39,153 bases of DNA from a virus: IMG/VR virus record IMGVR_UViG_3300047095_000426, positions 1 through 39,153 of that record, one strand, 5' to 3'. The notes below the pieces were generated by a model. That model did not search any database. It worked only from the letters and a program-made list of their open reading frames with translations, and was not told the DNA's origin. Positions 23,043-31,533 of this stretch are shown here, piece after piece. Made by a program: the position numbers and the translations under genes. Numbering within the stretch: position 1 is the first letter of the stretch; the number at the start of each line of letters is the position of its first letter.

Positions 23043-25004
23043 ATGACCATCTGGCTTGATTTCGAGACTCGCAGCCACTGCGACCTGCCCCGCCACGGCG
23101 CCTACACCTACGCGCAGCACCCTAGCACGCAGGTGCTCTGCATGGCTTGGGCGCTGGACGACGGTGAGGTCGAGCTCTGGACGCCCGAGCAGCCGTTCCC
23201 GCAGGCGGTCAGGGATGCCATCCAGAATCTGGACACCATCCGCGCGCACAATGCGGCATTCGAGCGCCTAATCTTTTGGTATGTCGTCTGCCCTGACTTC
23301 GACGTGCCGGAACCAACGCTTGAGCAGTTTTACTGCACCGCAGCACAGGCGCGTGCGAACTGCGCGCCGGGCAGCTTGGAGGATGTCGGTCGGTTTGCTG
23401 GCGCGGGGATGCGGAAGGACCACAAGGGCGCCGCGCTCGTCCGCAAGTGCTGCGTGCCGCCCTTCAAGCATACCGAGCAGGACATGGCCGACCTGTTCGA
23501 GTACTGCCGTCAGGACGTGCGTGCGATGCGCGCCGTCTCGCAGTCGCTGCGGCAGTTGTCGGAGGTCGAGCTTGCCGACTACCATGTCAATGAGCGGATC
23601 AACGATCGCGGCATCCGGATCGACGTCGATTTGGCGGCCGCTGCGATGGCCTACGCCGCGCAGGAAACCCGCGAGATCCAAGCCCGCGTGCGCGAGGTGA
23701 CCGAGGGCGCCGTGCCGACCGTGCGCTCGCCTGCCATGCGGGCATGGGTACTGGAGCGGCTCGGGCCGCAGGCGAGGAAGCTCGCCGTGCGCCACAAGGG
23801 CGGCGAGGCCAAGGATTCGATCGACAAATCAGTGCGGGCGACCCTGTTGGCGCTCGCGGAGGAACACCCCGATGAGGTCCCGCCCGCTGTTGCCGAGGTC
23901 ATCCAAGCCGCCGACGATGTCTGGGCGTCTGCGACTGCGAAGTTCGGCCGTTTCGCTGCCTTGGCTGATCCGGAGGACGCGCGCCTTAGAGGAGCGTTTG
24001 TTTTTGCTGGAGGGGCAGCTACTGGACGAGCGAGCAGCTATGGCGCTCAAGTTCACAACATCCCCCGAAAGTCCGCAAAAGATCCACTGACCGTGCGCGC
24101 TGCCATGATGCGCCGCGAACCGCTCGCGCCCGCCTACGGTAAGCGGGTGACGGACGTGCTGAAGCTCATGCTGCGACCGGCGCTGGTGCCTGCTCACGGA
24201 CACGTCTTCGTTGTGGCCGACTGGTCGGCTATCGAGGGCCGGGTCAATCCTTGGCTCGCTGCCAGCGCGACGGGCGAGGCGAAGCTCGACGTGTTCCGGC
24301 GCCGGCTCGACCCTTACAAGGTCAACGCGGCGACAACGTATGGCGTCCAGTATTCGGACGTCACCGACGACCAGAGGCAGGTCGGCAAGGTGCAGGAGCT
24401 TGCGCTAGGGTTCGGCGGGGGCGCGGGCGCGTTCGGTGCGATGGCGCGCGGTTACGGCGTGCGCCTGCCCGCCGATCAGGTCGAGCGCAGCGTGCGCGGC
24501 TGGCGCCATGCGAATCCGTGGGCGCCCGTGTTTTGGTCCGACCTTGAGCGGGCCTACTGGTCCGCGATGCGCCACCCTGGGGCCGAGTTCGACGCGGGGC
24601 GGGTCACCTATCTGTTCGATGGCCAGACCCTGTGGTATGTGCTGCCGTCAGGGCGCGTGCTCTGTTACCCATTTGCCCGGATCGAGGGCGACGAAATCAG
24701 TTACGCCAAGGCGTCATGGAAGCCGGCAGCGGACGCGAAAGAGTGGCCGCGAGCGCGGCTCTGGCGTGGGCTCGCGTGCGAGAACGTGACGCAGGCAGCC
24801 GCGCACGACGTCCTGCGCGAGGCGCTGCGGGTGCTCGACGGCGTGGTCGCGCACGTCCATGACGAGATCGTGCTAGAGGTGCCCAAGGCCGAGGCCGAAA
24901 AGGCCAAAGCGATGCTCGAACGAGTGATGACAACAGCGCCCGACTGGGCGGCGGGGCTGCCGCTAGCAGTCGAGGCCAAAATCATGCGGAGATACGGGAA
25001 GTGA
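23043..25004 (+). CDS. Family A DNA polymerase with 3'-5' exonuclease
   Basis: The 653-residue product has an exonuclease domain: Exo I DFET (6-9), Exo II AHNAAFE (68-74), Exo III YCRQD (154-158). The polymerase domain has motif A DWSAIEGR (393-400), motif B RQVGKVQELALGFGGG (445-460) and motif C HVHDEIV (604-610). GRASSYGAQVHNIPR (328-342) is typical of phage type A polymerases. It replicates the phage genome with the primase-helicase, whose GTG overlaps its stop. The start is unusual: ATG23043 follows the terminator T-run with no Shine-Dalgarno; no better start exists upstream. Confidence 0.93.
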   Translation: MTIWLDFETRSHCDLPRHGAYTYAQHPSTQVLCMAWALDDGEVELWTPEQPFPQAVRDAIQNLDTIRAHNAAFERLIFWYVVCPDFDVPEPTLEQFYCTAAQARANCAPGSLEDVGRFAGAGMRKDHKGAALVRKCCVPPFKHTEQDMADLFEYCRQDVRAMRAVSQSLRQLSEVELADYHVNERINDRGIRIDVDLAAAAMAYAAQETREIQARVREVTEGAVPTVRSPAMRAWVLERLGPQARKLAVRHKGGEAKDSIDKSVRATLLALAEEHPDEVPPAVAEVIQAADDVWASATAKFGRFAALADPEDARLRGAFVFAGGAATGRASSYGAQVHNIPRKSAKDPLTVRAAMMRREPLAPAYGKRVTDVLKLMLRPALVPAHGHVFVVADWSAIEGRVNPWLAASATGEAKLDVFRRRLDPYKVNAATTYGVQYSDVTDDQRQVGKVQELALGFGGGAGAFGAMARGYGVRLPADQVERSVRGWRHANPWAPVFWSDLERAYWSAMRHPGAEFDAGRVTYLFDGQTLWYVLPSGRVLCYPFARIEGDEISYAKASWKPAADAKEWPRARLWRGLACENVTQAAAHDVLREALRVLDGVVAHVHDEIVLEVPKAEAEKAKAMLERVMTTAPDWAAGLPLAVEAKIMRRYGK

Positions 25005-27295
25005 ACGAGAAATTCATCAACTGGCTGATCGCGCTCGCCCCGGAGGGCGAGACAGCGCTCTTCATCAAACAGCGGATCAAGCCGAACGGCAAGCCGACCT
25101 ATGTCGCGCACCTGCCCGAGCGCTACCTGCGCTCGCCTGACGGCGCCTGGTACGGGAACACCGGCAGCTTCAAACTTGAGCGGCTCGCGGCGGGCGTGCG
25201 GGTCACCCGCGAGAACATCGACTATGTGTTGCTGCTGATGCTGGATGACATCGGCACCAAGAGCAAGACGCCCCCGATCGAGCCGACTTGGAAGATGGAA
25301 ACCAGTCCGGGTAACCAGCAGTGGTGCTACGTCTTTCGCGCCGAGGACGCGCCGACCAAGCAACTGTTCACCGCAGCGGTGGCGGCGATCGCGGCGGCGG
25401 GCTTCACCGACGAGGGCGCGACCAACTGCGTGAGAAATTTTAGGCTGCCGGGCAGTGTAAACCTGAAGCCCGAGCGCAACGGTTTCGAGTCGCGCTTGGT
25501 CGAGTGGCACCCGGCTCGCGAGTTCACGCTTGAGCAGATCATGGCGGCGCTTGGCGTGCCAATGCCCGACCCGACCGCGCTCATCGACCCGGTGCTGGTC
25601 GACGACGGCGAGTCGGACGAGGTCATGCAGTGGTTATCGGCCGAGGGGCTGTTGCTCGAGCGGCCGAATGCGGCCGGCTGGGCGGGCGTGGTCTGCCCGA
25701 ATGCCGAGCAGCATTCAAACGATGACATTGAAGGGCGCTACTTCCCGGCGAGCCGGGCCTACAAGTGCCTGCATGGCCATTGTGTCGACTGGAACAGCGA
25801 GCGGTTCCTGCGTTGGGTCGAAGAGCAGGGCGGCCCGGCGCAGGGCTACGGATTGCGCGAAGAACTGGTCGCCGAGCGGATGCGCGCGGTGCGGGCCGCG
25901 CTGACGCCGACCGAGGCGTTCCCCGATCAGGCCGCGCAGACGATCGCCGAGGTTGAGCGGCGCGAGGCCGGGCGGGTTGAGAAAGAAGGCTGGTACGAGC
26001 GCTTCGCTTACCTGCACAGCGACGACGGGTATTTTGATCTGGTCGCGCGCAAGCAGTATTCGCGCTCGAACTTCGACGCGGTCTTCCGGCATGTGCTTTG
26101 CCTCTCGATTCACGCGGCGCCTGGCAGCAAGAGCCGGCGTCGGATCGAGGCGTCGCGATCGTTCGACGAGAACCGGCAGGACATGGGCGCTCGCGTCCTT
26201 CAGGGCGTCACCTACGCGCCGGGCGAGGGCGTGCTAGTCAGTCGGGCCGGTGACGTGTACGCAAACTTGTGGCGGGACGCGCGGCCGGCGGGCGCTGCGG
26301 GCGACGCGACGCCGTGGCTGCGGCACGTCGAGCGGATGGTGCCTGACACGGCCGAGCGCGAGCATGCGCTCGATTGGATGGCGTTCAAGGTCCAGCGCTC
26401 GAACATCAAAATCAATCACGGCATCCTGCACGGCGGGTTTCCCGGCTCGGGCAAGGACACTATGTGGGAACCGTTCCTCTACGCGGTCGGCGGTGCGTCG
26501 AAGGAGAACATTGCGACGGTCAAGAACGAAGAGCTGAACTCGCAGTGGGGATATAGCCTGATGAGCGAGGTGCTGGTCATCAATGAGCTGCGCCAGACTG
26601 AGGTCAGCGACCGGCGCGCGCTTGAGAACCGGCTGAAGCCCCTGCTGGCGGCGCCCCCGGAACTGTTGAGCGTGAACCGGAAGGGCTTGCACCCGTTCGA
26701 CGCGCAGAACCGATTGAGCGTTGTCGCGTTCAGCAATGAGCGGATGGCGATCACACTGACGTCAGACGACCGGCGCTGGTTTGTGCTCTGGTCTGACGCG
26801 GGCAAGATGGATGCGGCAGAGGCCGAGCGGCTCTGGCAGTGGTACGACAAGGGCGGCCGTGACGCGGTCGCGGCTTGGCTGCGTGCCCGAGACGTGAGCG
26901 GGTTCCTGCCTGGCGCAGCGCCCGTTATGACCGAGGCGAAGGCGATCATGTTGCAGGCGGGCCTGTCGCCGGTCGAGTCAGCGCTTGTTGAGTTGATCAA
27001 GGGGCGGCACGGTGAGTTCGCGCCCGGCGCCGTGCAGGCGCCATGGCAGGCGCTTTGTGACCGCCTAGCGGGCCTGATGCCGAACGGCTCGCGCGTGAGC
27101 GTCTACGCGCTCTTTCACGCATTGTCAGAGGCCGGCTGGCTGGACTGCGGGCGGGTCAAGACTCCCGAGCATCAGACCAAGACCCATGTCATGTGCGCGC
27201 CGGAGATCTGGGAGCATTTCGCTGGCAACCGGTCCGAGATCAGGCGCCTGTGCGAGCGCGGGCGGGCGGGCGGTCCTTTGAGGGTAGTCGGCTAA
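25001..27295 (+). CDS. Primase-helicase (RepB-like primase, SF3/DUF5906-type helicase)
   Basis: The 764-residue product has an N-terminal primase-like domain (about 1-200) with acidic pair D82/D83 and the strand RNFRLPGSVNLKP (145-157), typical of bifunctional primase/RepB-like folds. A Cys/His cluster (C232, H238, C256, H258, C261) may bind zinc. The C-terminal helicase has Walker A GGFPGSGKDT (478-487), a likely Walker B VLVINELR (about 522-529) and SNERM (about 579-583). It makes primers and unwinds DNA for the family A polymerase. GTG25001 is coupled to the polymerase stop. Confidence 0.88.
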   Translation: MNEKFINWLIALAPEGETALFIKQRIKPNGKPTYVAHLPERYLRSPDGAWYGNTGSFKLERLAAGVRVTRENIDYVLLLMLDDIGTKSKTPPIEPTWKMETSPGNQQWCYVFRAEDAPTKQLFTAAVAAIAAAGFTDEGATNCVRNFRLPGSVNLKPERNGFESRLVEWHPAREFTLEQIMAALGVPMPDPTALIDPVLVDDGESDEVMQWLSAEGLLLERPNAAGWAGVVCPNAEQHSNDDIEGRYFPASRAYKCLHGHCVDWNSERFLRWVEEQGGPAQGYGLREELVAERMRAVRAALTPTEAFPDQAAQTIAEVERREAGRVEKEGWYERFAYLHSDDGYFDLVARKQYSRSNFDAVFRHVLCLSIHAAPGSKSRRRIEASRSFDENRQDMGARVLQGVTYAPGEGVLVSRAGDVYANLWRDARPAGAAGDATPWLRHVERMVPDTAEREHALDWMAFKVQRSNIKINHGILHGGFPGSGKDTMWEPFLYAVGGASKENIATVKNEELNSQWGYSLMSEVLVINELRQTEVSDRRALENRLKPLLAAPPELLSVNRKGLHPFDAQNRLSVVAFSNERMAITLTSDDRRWFVLWSDAGKMDAAEAERLWQWYDKGGRDAVAAWLRARDVSGFLPGAAPVMTEAKAIMLQAGLSPVESALVELIKGRHGEFAPGAVQAPWQALCDRLAGLMPNGSRVSVYALFHALSEAGWLDCGRVKTPEHQTKTHVMCAPEIWEHFAGNRSEIRRLCERGRAGGPLRVVG

Positions 27296-30075: not shown

Positions 30076-30309
30076 TCAGGCGCGCTTTTCGACGATGTCG
30101 ACCAAGCCCCATTGCTTGGCAAGACCATTGGCGACGAACCGCGCCTCGGCGAGCCAATCGGCGCCGTGGTAGTCGGCCGAAGTGTAGGTGCAATCGTCGT
30201 CGTTCCACGGGTGATCGGGATAGCTGACGTCGTACTCGCGCACGCTCACGAACGCGATGCGCGCGTCGGCGTCGATCAGAATGCGGACATGAGTGGTTTC
30301 GGGTGTCAT
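30076..30309 (-). CDS. Small acidic hypothetical protein, 77 aa
   Basis: The product begins MTPETTHVRILIDADARIAF and is acidic (DHPWNDDDCTYTSADYHGAD), ending in a helix LAEARFVANGLAKQWGLVDIVEKRA. AAGGAG precedes ATG30309. It is the first gene of the leftward operon, nearest to the promoter at 30364-30392. Acidic first-gene products in early operons may be DNA mimics or host takeover proteins, but there is no specific evidence here. Confidence 0.65.
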   Translation of the reverse strand: MTPETTHVRILIDADARIAFVSVREYDVSYPDHPWNDDDCTYTSADYHGADWLAEARFVANGLAKQWGLVDIVEKRA

Positions 30310-30363
30310 GGTTTAGCTCCTTGGGGCAGTGCTGAATCGGTTGATGAAGTGTTGCAAGCCTGT

Positions 30364-30392
30364 ACGCTACAGGTTTTGTAGCAGTCTGTCAA
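30364..30392 (-). promoter_or_regulatory. Promoter of leftward operon
   Basis: Reading leftward, TTGACA (30392-30387) is a perfect -35 box. TAGCGT (30369-30364) lies 17 bp downstream and matches the -10 consensus at three of six positions. The -10 end of the promoter overlaps an inverted repeat (30366-30382). It would start transcription about 45 bases before ATG30309. Confidence 0.5.
30366..30382. promoter_or_regulatory. Operator-like inverted repeat in leftward promoter
   Basis: GCTACA and TGTAGC are perfect 6-bp arms around a 5-base spacer. The repeat lies between and over the -10 element of the promoter reading to 30309, so a bound protein would block initiation. The phage-encoded zinc-ribbon/winged-helix protein is one candidate ligand; this is inference. 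Confidence 0.4.
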
Positions 30393-30440
30393 ACAATTTA
30401 TCGCAGGCTGGAGAGCTTACCTTTTGGGGCACTGTGGGGT

Positions 30441-30454
30441 AGCAGGATCCTGCT
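30441..30454. repeat. Perfect 14-bp palindrome AGCAGGATCCTGCT
   Basis: It has no spacer and lies inside a wider inverted repeat: TGGGGTAGC at 30435-30443 and GCTACCCCA at 30473-30481. The nested arms could extrude as a cruciform or bind a dimer, and they include two of the CCCCA boxes. Confidence 0.55.
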
Positions 30455-30575
30455 CGATGGTTTGTTGTCGGCGCTACCCCAAGGGCGGCGGGCGGGGCAG
30501 TCGGCGCCGCTGCGATTCTCGACTCAGAATGCCTTTTGGGGTATTCGTTTTGGCTTTTATTTAGTCAGATAAAAT

Positions 30576-30592
30576 TGCCTAAATAATAGGCA
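30576..30592. repeat. Inverted repeat in AT-rich block
   Basis: TGCCTA and TAGGCA flank the 5-base spacer AATAA. Just upstream TTTTAT (30555-30560) and ATAAAA (30569-30574) form another short inverted repeat. Both lie in the AT-rich part of an otherwise GC-rich region, which fits a duplex-unwinding element. Confidence 0.5.
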
Positions 30593-30766
30593 GACAGGCT
30601 TACCTTCGTGGCGGCGCCGCCCGCCGCCGCGCTCGCACGGCAGCGATTTTTTCCCCCCGCCCCAGAGTGCCCCAATGACCCCAGACTACCCCAAGACCCC
30701 AAACCGCCACAAACCGCGTGCAGCACACTATCGAGCGTTTGGGGTACACCCCACGATACCCCAGAT

Positions 30767-30787
30767 GATAATGGTCTGACCATTATC
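30767..30787. repeat. 21-bp palindrome, operator-like
   Basis: GATAATGGTC and GACCATTATC are perfect 10-bp arms around one central T. It lies four bases after a CCCCA box. The length and symmetry are typical of a dimeric regulator site. Confidence 0.65.
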
Positions 30788-30833
30788 CGGCCGTGCGCCG
30801 TCAATTTGTGGGGCACTGCCCCAACTGCCCCAC

Positions 30834-30865
30834 GGCGGTCGGCGGTCGGCGGTCGGCGGTCGGCG
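30834..30865. repeat. Tandem GGCGGTC repeat, four units
   Basis: Four exact 7-bp GGCGGTC units start at 30834, 30841, 30848 and 30855, followed by a partial unit. The unit is not a codon multiple and no gene covers it. Units of this kind change number easily by slippage. Confidence 0.8.
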
Positions 30866-31095
30866 CCCAGGTGCGATAGCCGTTACCTATAGTCGGCCAG
30901 GTGCTGATAGCTTGGCAGCTCGGCCGCGCCAGCGCGAGGCCAGCGCCAGCGAGCCCCCAGGGTAGGGCCGACGCGCCGGCAGGTCAAAATCGGAAGGGTC
31001 GCAAACATTTTTATTTTTTCTGCAAACTGCAAACCACCACACAACTTGCTGCACACCACTACACAACAGAAAGTCAGTCTGTTACATTGCACCCC

Positions 31096-31533
31096 ATGAC
31101 GTTCAAGACCCTGCCAATCGCCGCACGGCAACTGAAGGCCACGGAGGCGCGCCTCCAGTCCGTCTATGACGCAGCCAAACTTGGTCTAAACGGCGACAAC
31201 CTGGCGCTCGCCGCCGGGCTGTTGCCGGTCGAGTTTCGGCGGTTGCGCGAGATGGACCCGCTAGTTGAGATGGCTGAACAGAAGGGGCGCGCCGACGCTG
31301 AGGCTGAACTGTCGAAGGTGTTGATGGCGGCGGCGCTGTCAGGTGACCACAAGGCGGCGCTTGAGATCCTGAAACACAAGCACGACTGGGTCGCCAAACA
31401 GCAGGTGCAGGTCGACGTCGCGCAACAGATCAGTATATTAGGGGCGCTTGAGGCAGCGGAGCGCCGCGTCATTGATGTGCAGATGAACGAGGTGCTGCCA
31501 GCCCATGCAACAGCCCAAGTACAGCGCGGATGA
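31096..31533 (+). CDS. terS: Terminase small subunit
   Basis: The 145-residue product starts at ATG31096 (MTFKTLPIAARQLKATEARL). An N-terminal helix-turn-helix-like part (about 20-55: QSVYDAAKLGLNGDNLALAAGLLPVEFRRLRE) precedes a helical oligomerisation domain (about 60-110, ELSKVLMAAALSGDHKAALEILKHKH). Small subunits recognise the packaging site and recruit the large subunit. The gene overlaps terL by 29 bases. An in-frame upstream extension to 30901 passes through the structured region and is rejected. Confidence 0.82.
   Translation: MTFKTLPIAARQLKATEARLQSVYDAAKLGLNGDNLALAAGLLPVEFRRLREMDPLVEMAEQKGRADAEAELSKVLMAAALSGDHKAALEILKHKHDWVAKQQVQVDVAQQISILGALEAAERRVIDVQMNEVLPAHATAQVQRG

Follow-up and report, generated by a model that had tools for sequence, protein, structure and literature searches.

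Gene content of the window and the intergenic box array

The DNA analysed in this study (the window) is a viral record of 39,153 bases from IMG/VR and derives from a P22-like podovirus. Its genes include those for a P22-type portal and coat, scaffold, terminase, a family-A polymerase and a primase-helicase, together with a PD-(D/E)XK exonuclease, an SNF2-type helicase and a VRR-NUC nuclease. A group I intron match (Rfam RF00028, E = 4e-19) is located at 1177-1902, between the scaffold and coat genes, and encloses an ORF of 199 amino acids at 1271-1870. The coordinates of the features discussed below are listed in Table 1.

Table 1. Features of the initiator gene, the box array and terS in the window
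Feature	Position	Strand	Basis or remarks
Putative initiator primase-helicase	25001..27295	+	RepB_primase AEP, CxnHxnCxHxxC Zn motif, DUF5906/SF3 helicase, C-terminal winged helix
SF3 helicase core	26429..26776	+	DUF5906 match, residues 477-592; inside the half that segregates with the word
C-terminal winged-helix domain, proposed box reader	26912..27292	+	Residues 638-764; AlphaFold2 mean pLDDT 83, helix-helix-wing
Divergent intergenic region with putative origin	30310..31095		Between minus-strand gene 30076-30309 and terS; ORF lists, sequence
Left iteron set	30322..30541	-	TGGGG at 30322, 30425, 30435 and 30537 (minus), CCCCA at 30477 (plus)
AT-rich core, putative unwinding element	30542..30591		50-base window, 72% A+T; between the two iteron sets
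Right iteron set, run of five CCCCA	30660..30701	+	Starts 30660, 30670, 30679, 30689, 30697; spacings 10, 9, 10, 8
Right iteron set, triple (-)(+)(+)	30740..30763		Boxes 30740, 30749, 30759
Right iteron set, triple (-)(+)(+)	30809..30832		Boxes 30809, 30819, 30828
CGGCGGT tandem repeat right of the array	30833..30865		4.7 copies in the window; variable, not conserved
terS, rejected as box reader	31096..31533	+	True start 31096

The primase-helicase matches the Pfam families PF16793 (RepB_primase) and PF19263 (DUF5906), and its SF3 part gave a profile match to the ring helicase of NrS-1 polymerase (6k9c/6k9e, E = 4e-11). In the C-terminal 127 residues, a strand (40-42), two helices (45-53 and 64-73) and two wing strands (77-84 and 87-95) are predicted with good confidence, and the domain order in a full-length model agrees. 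Structure searches with this C-terminal domain (Foldseek, VIA) retrieved generic winged-helix proteins with weak scores (best Z, 6.2), and P4 alpha was not among these listed, weak matches. The gene ends at 27295 and the boxes begin at 30322, a distance of approximately 3.1 kb.

The array consists of CCCCA and its complement TGGGG, of which exactly 15 copies are present in 30425-30832. A preliminary description of this DNA had reported 15 copies in about 408 bases, with run spacings of 10, 9, 10 and 8 bases and pair spacings of 10, 10 and 9, and an exact recount yielded the same values. Additional boxes are found just outside this segment at 30322 (minus), 30955 (plus) and 31092 (plus). The window as a whole contains 72 copies compared with 66.7 expected, and thus shows no overall excess. 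Its richest 408 bases, however, contain 15 boxes, a count for which 400 dinucleotide shuffles averaged 4.07 and peaked at 6; locally, 17 boxes were counted, whereas 2000 shuffles averaged 3.2 and peaked at 10. The excess is confined to one local cluster at the array and is not genome-wide; the previous statement that the array exceeds what base composition would produce is supported, as no shuffled sequence reached an equal density. The orientation string computed for the window runs minus, minus, minus, plus, minus to the left of the AT core and four plus, one minus, one plus, one minus and two plus to the right.

An Rfam search of the array detected no RNA family. DnaA boxes are absent from the window and are present in only 3 of 48 loci, and no minimum appears at 30.5 kb in the cumulative GC skew calculated for the window, leaving the origin reading unsupported by skew. 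The tandem repeat next to the array is expanded to approximately 17 copies in one relative (L002), and relatives carry other 7-8-base tandem repeats at this position. Between the array and terS lies a GC-rich block (approximately 30953-31015), followed by GGTCAAAATCGGAAGGGTCGCA and a T-rich run, which is kept before terS where the array changes; this conserved block is a candidate cos or pac site.

Conserved layout and changing words in related phages

TerL and primase searches of viral contigs yielded some 180 loci, and an array of like layout is present upstream of terS in approximately 100 relatives. In these relatives, boxes occur every 9-10 bp around an AT-rich core, most of those on its left being on the minus strand and most of those on its right on the plus strand. 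In 48 loci, which are related and not independent, we counted 117 minus and 59 plus boxes left of the core and 217 plus and 67 minus boxes right of it. The array, its spacing, its orientation and the core are thus demonstrated computationally.

The word that is repeated differs among lineages. The array is conserved in relatives of the TACCCCA type (for example, L002, L005, L007 and L009), and other close relatives have an array at the same place with a different word. A word finder blind to CCCCA, applied upstream of terS, found TACCCCA, TGACCCAT, TGCCCAT, TTGCCCACA, TAGCCTA, TGTCCACA, TGACCTAT, TTACCTACA and others by lineage, each in 5-14 copies where a fraction of one or a few would be expected. 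Alignment with relatives, which the preliminary description had proposed, therefore gives a divided answer: position, spacing and orientation are conserved, but the literal CCCCA occurs only in some relatives, and non-conservation applies to this literal word alone, because in most close relatives the array is retained with a different word. Arrays upstream of terS also occur in two deposited related phages, DSL-LC05 (L222) and MW202483 (L223), where the words are GACCCACTGGGTC-like and GTTTACATAAAC-like, respectively. A G-quadruplex or telomere-like repeat was rejected because the G-run is not conserved, relatives having GCCTA, GTCCACA, CCTACA and similar words.

The spacing is centred on 9 bp. 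Among the nearest same-strand boxes pooled from the relatives, 143 pairs are 9 bp and 58 are 10 bp apart, and pooled 6-mer self-matches in 108 loci number 586 at 9 bp and roughly 16-166 at other distances. Binding on one face of the helix, as previously suggested, is therefore only approximate, since the commonest spacing of 9 bp turns successive sites by approximately 50 degrees. A sequence-reading protein on adjacent sites is still the best explanation of the array, but strict helical phasing is not supported.

Two further repeat types occur in this region. ACTAAC was dismissed as an iteron word because inspection showed it to mark a different, palindromic family of repeats, located downstream of the genuine boxes; in the loci labelled in this way (L037, L041, L046, L176 and L178), GTTAGTGnnnACTAAC-like palindromes lie between the iterons and the GC-rich block, at most 300 bases upstream of terS. 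In addition, LexA-type sites (CTGT-N8-ACAG, often a perfect TACTGTATATATATACAGTA) are present in the array region of 25 of the 48 relatives and absent from the window. They lie in the AT-rich core of L005, L007, L009, L003 and L015, for example, and the 48 loci contain 34 such sites in all of their 658 kb.

Co-inheritance of the word with part of the primase-helicase

A comparison of the TACCCCA clade (L145-L164 and L009) with the TGACCCAT clade (L165-L171) indicates which protein follows the word. The terS and terL genes are nearly identical in the two clades, and polymerase identity between them is 0.88-0.98. Residues ~20-330 of the primase-helicase are likewise 93-100% identical across the clades, whereas residues ~340-760 are 45-86% identical between the clades and 81-100% within each, with a sharp breakpoint near residue ~340. 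This contrast, to which the unreliable ACTAAC labels are irrelevant, amounts in essence to a single recombination event, represented by many sequences.

The same pattern was obtained when all loci except L010 were compared in pairs. These counts come from related sequences, with few independent events, and include automatic class labels (ACTAAC, GCAACA and similar) that are unreliable. At an identity of at least 93%, pairs with different words number 165 for terS, 135 for terL, 42 for the polymerase and 148 for the AEP part; the corresponding counts are 3 of 322 for SF3 and 1 of 344 for the C-terminus, and at 97% SF3 identity none of 161 pairs differs in word. The word thus tracks the SF3 and C-terminal half of the primase-helicase and not terS, terL, the polymerase or the AEP domain, a co-inheritance that is also demonstrated computationally. 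Mere linkage is a poor account of this pairing, because terS, although closer to the array than the SF3 segment is, is uncoupled from the word, and because the 1-3 kb of DNA between the initiator and the array changes rapidly and is mostly unalignable within the TACCCCA clade (median, 26%).

The preliminary description had named three candidate readers, of which the primase-helicase is now favoured, but through its SF3 and C-terminal half and not through its Zn half. The zinc-ribbon candidate is not supported, and the AEP/Zn half is rejected as reader, given the near identity of the Zn-containing N-terminal half between clades with different words; the third, TerS, is set aside by the 165 pairs given above. 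Two relatives (L104 and L055) have exchanged the AEP domain for other N-terminal parts and retain the SF3/C-terminal half.

Finer mapping gave no single determinant. A residue-by-residue search for word-setting positions, which included the Zn region, found none, and whole-domain C-terminal identity did not predict the word beyond SF3 identity (permutation, 391/2000). The N-terminal tail of the primase, considered as a geminivirus-like specificity tag, showed no consistent pattern and was rejected. No small gene co-swapped between the primase gene and terS is common to all array-bearing relatives, and none of the other genes across whole phage genomes stood out as a reader.

L010 is the exception. 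Its initiator is 100% identical to that of L145, a TACCCCA locus, but its array is of the TGACCCAT type. The switch of type in L010 coincides exactly with the array's left edge (~5784), and the part to the left is of the L145 type (98.5% over 5.8 kb). This locus looks chimeric and may have arisen either in assembly or by recent recombination; metagenome assembly that joined two co-occurring strains at a conserved stretch would yield such a hybrid. If real and viable, L010 is a counterexample to the co-inheritance of word and initiator. An initial exclusion of the primase-helicase as reader, made from L009 and L010 alone, was overturned when the wider set revealed L010 as an outlier.

Several other readings of the array were weighed against these data. 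The array may instead control transcription of the divergent minus-strand genes and the late operon through a regulator other than the primase-helicase, which we regard as unlikely. Such a role would fit its position between divergent units, with terS and the late genes directly downstream, and the LexA-type sites in relatives suggest a promoter; however, the array-bearing relatives do not all have any one gene in common between the primase and terS, the word is uncoupled from terS, terL and the polymerase and follows the SF3/C-terminus, and two opposed iteron sets around an AT core would be unusual for an activator site.

It is quite improbable that the boxes are primase sites on single-stranded DNA, read by the N-terminal AEP and Zn part. 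Examples of primase sites are TTTGGTTA for NrS-1 polymerase and the GGGTC-type sites for T7. The SF3 domain that the initiator has in common with NrS-1 polymerase, which begins synthesis at an 8-nt motif (PMC8718748), favours this reading, but the AEP and Zn half reaches the 93% threshold in the 148 different-word pairs, and L104, in which TOPRIM replaces the AEP domain but the SF3/C-terminal half is the same, still keeps an array (TACCCCT). We give similarly little credence to a reader encoded elsewhere or by the host, with the SF3 link being accidental. The pairing in L010 and the failure to find word-setting residues would be in keeping with such a protein; against it, the word stays with the SF3/C-terminal half although 1-3 kb of scrambled DNA separates the two, and a reader supplied by the host would leave unaccounted for the common word of near-identical phages that have the same SF3 half.

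The least probable of the proposals is that the array is where TerS binds within a packaging site (cosB or pac). TerS rings are able to bind regularly spaced sites, and both the location of the array immediately upstream of terS and the conserved GC-rich block between them are compatible with this proposal. Nevertheless, 162 pairs of loci (without L010) combine TerS proteins at least 97% identical with different words, and the TerS proteins of L009 and L010 are identical over their first 129 residues although the arrays are of the TACCCCA and TGACCCAT types, respectively.

A putative iteron-type origin and its relation to known systems

We consider it likely that the array is an iteron-type replication origin of this P22-like podovirus and that it is read by the phage's own primase-helicase, a proposal based in part on analogy with P4 alpha and the PICI origins. 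Copies of the primase-helicase would bind the CCCCA boxes through the C-terminal winged helix, which we infer to be the reader in preference to other parts of the same half. With the two box sets, mostly opposite in orientation, flanking the AT-rich core, SF3 domains could form rings on both sides and melt the core, and the N-terminal primase would then make primers for the family-A polymerase of the phage. If every box has the same reader protein, a new word requires the whole set of boxes and the reader to be changed or swapped together, and word and SF3/C-terminal half would consequently travel together.

More tentatively, with the balance of our judgement somewhat against it, origin/initiator pairs may be interchangeable in this abundant family of free-living podoviruses. 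The SF3 and winged-helix part and the distant array would switch together by recombination while the primase half, polymerase, TerS and TerL stay constant, and the word would define a replication compatibility group. If so, co-infecting close relatives would not start replication on each other's genomes. The lineages with matched word and reader may provide a natural series for studying how a winged-helix initiator changes its DNA specificity, and they bear on whether co-infecting phages fall into compatibility groups set by their iteron words. A limited literature search (open-licence papers only, and thus weak evidence) found no description of switching origins of this sort in podoviruses.

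Among known systems, the alpha protein of phage P4 uses a winged helix to bind origin repeats, and unwinding and priming by the protein follow (PMC4234260). The window resembles P4 in combining a primase, an SF3 helicase and a C-terminal winged helix (predicted here) in one protein and in having repeated short boxes. It differs in that the primase is of the AEP/RepB type and not TOPRIM, the latter being found in relatives such as L104, in that the carrier is a complete P22-like podovirus, and in that the word switches between near relatives. The pRN1 protein ORF904, like the window protein with its predicted winged helix, unites AEP, SF3 helicase and C-terminal winged helix, but its origin is reported to be a stem-loop that lacks iterons, and stem-loop origins were proposed for such proteins generally (PMC4234260). 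The primase-polymerase of NrS-1 is also an AEP plus SF3 protein, as reflected in the SF3 profile match, but NrS-1 has two copies of one 8-nt site instead of an array (PMC7102993), and its isolated N-terminal N300 part still responds to the recognition-site sequence (PMC8718748).

A different parallel is provided by the geminivirus iterons, in which the arrangement is conserved and the word is lineage-specific and tied to the DNA-reading part of the initiator (PMC10653810). The geminivirus Rep is, however, an unrelated rolling-circle initiator, and the resemblance is one of analogy, not homology. In PICI origins, two iteron sets flank an AT-rich region (PMC6092414), and the window and the 48 loci share with these PICI/SaPI pri-rep-ori origins the two iteron sets around an AT core. 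PICI origins directly adjoin the initiator gene, immediately 3' of pri-rep, in contrast to the distant array of the window, and unlike the satellites the window has its own virion genes (P22-like portal, coat and scaffold) and terminase. If our proposal is correct, the P4/PICI layout, which has been described as unique to PICIs, extends to complete podoviruses and to AEP-type primase-helicases, the proteins for which a stem-loop origin was proposed.
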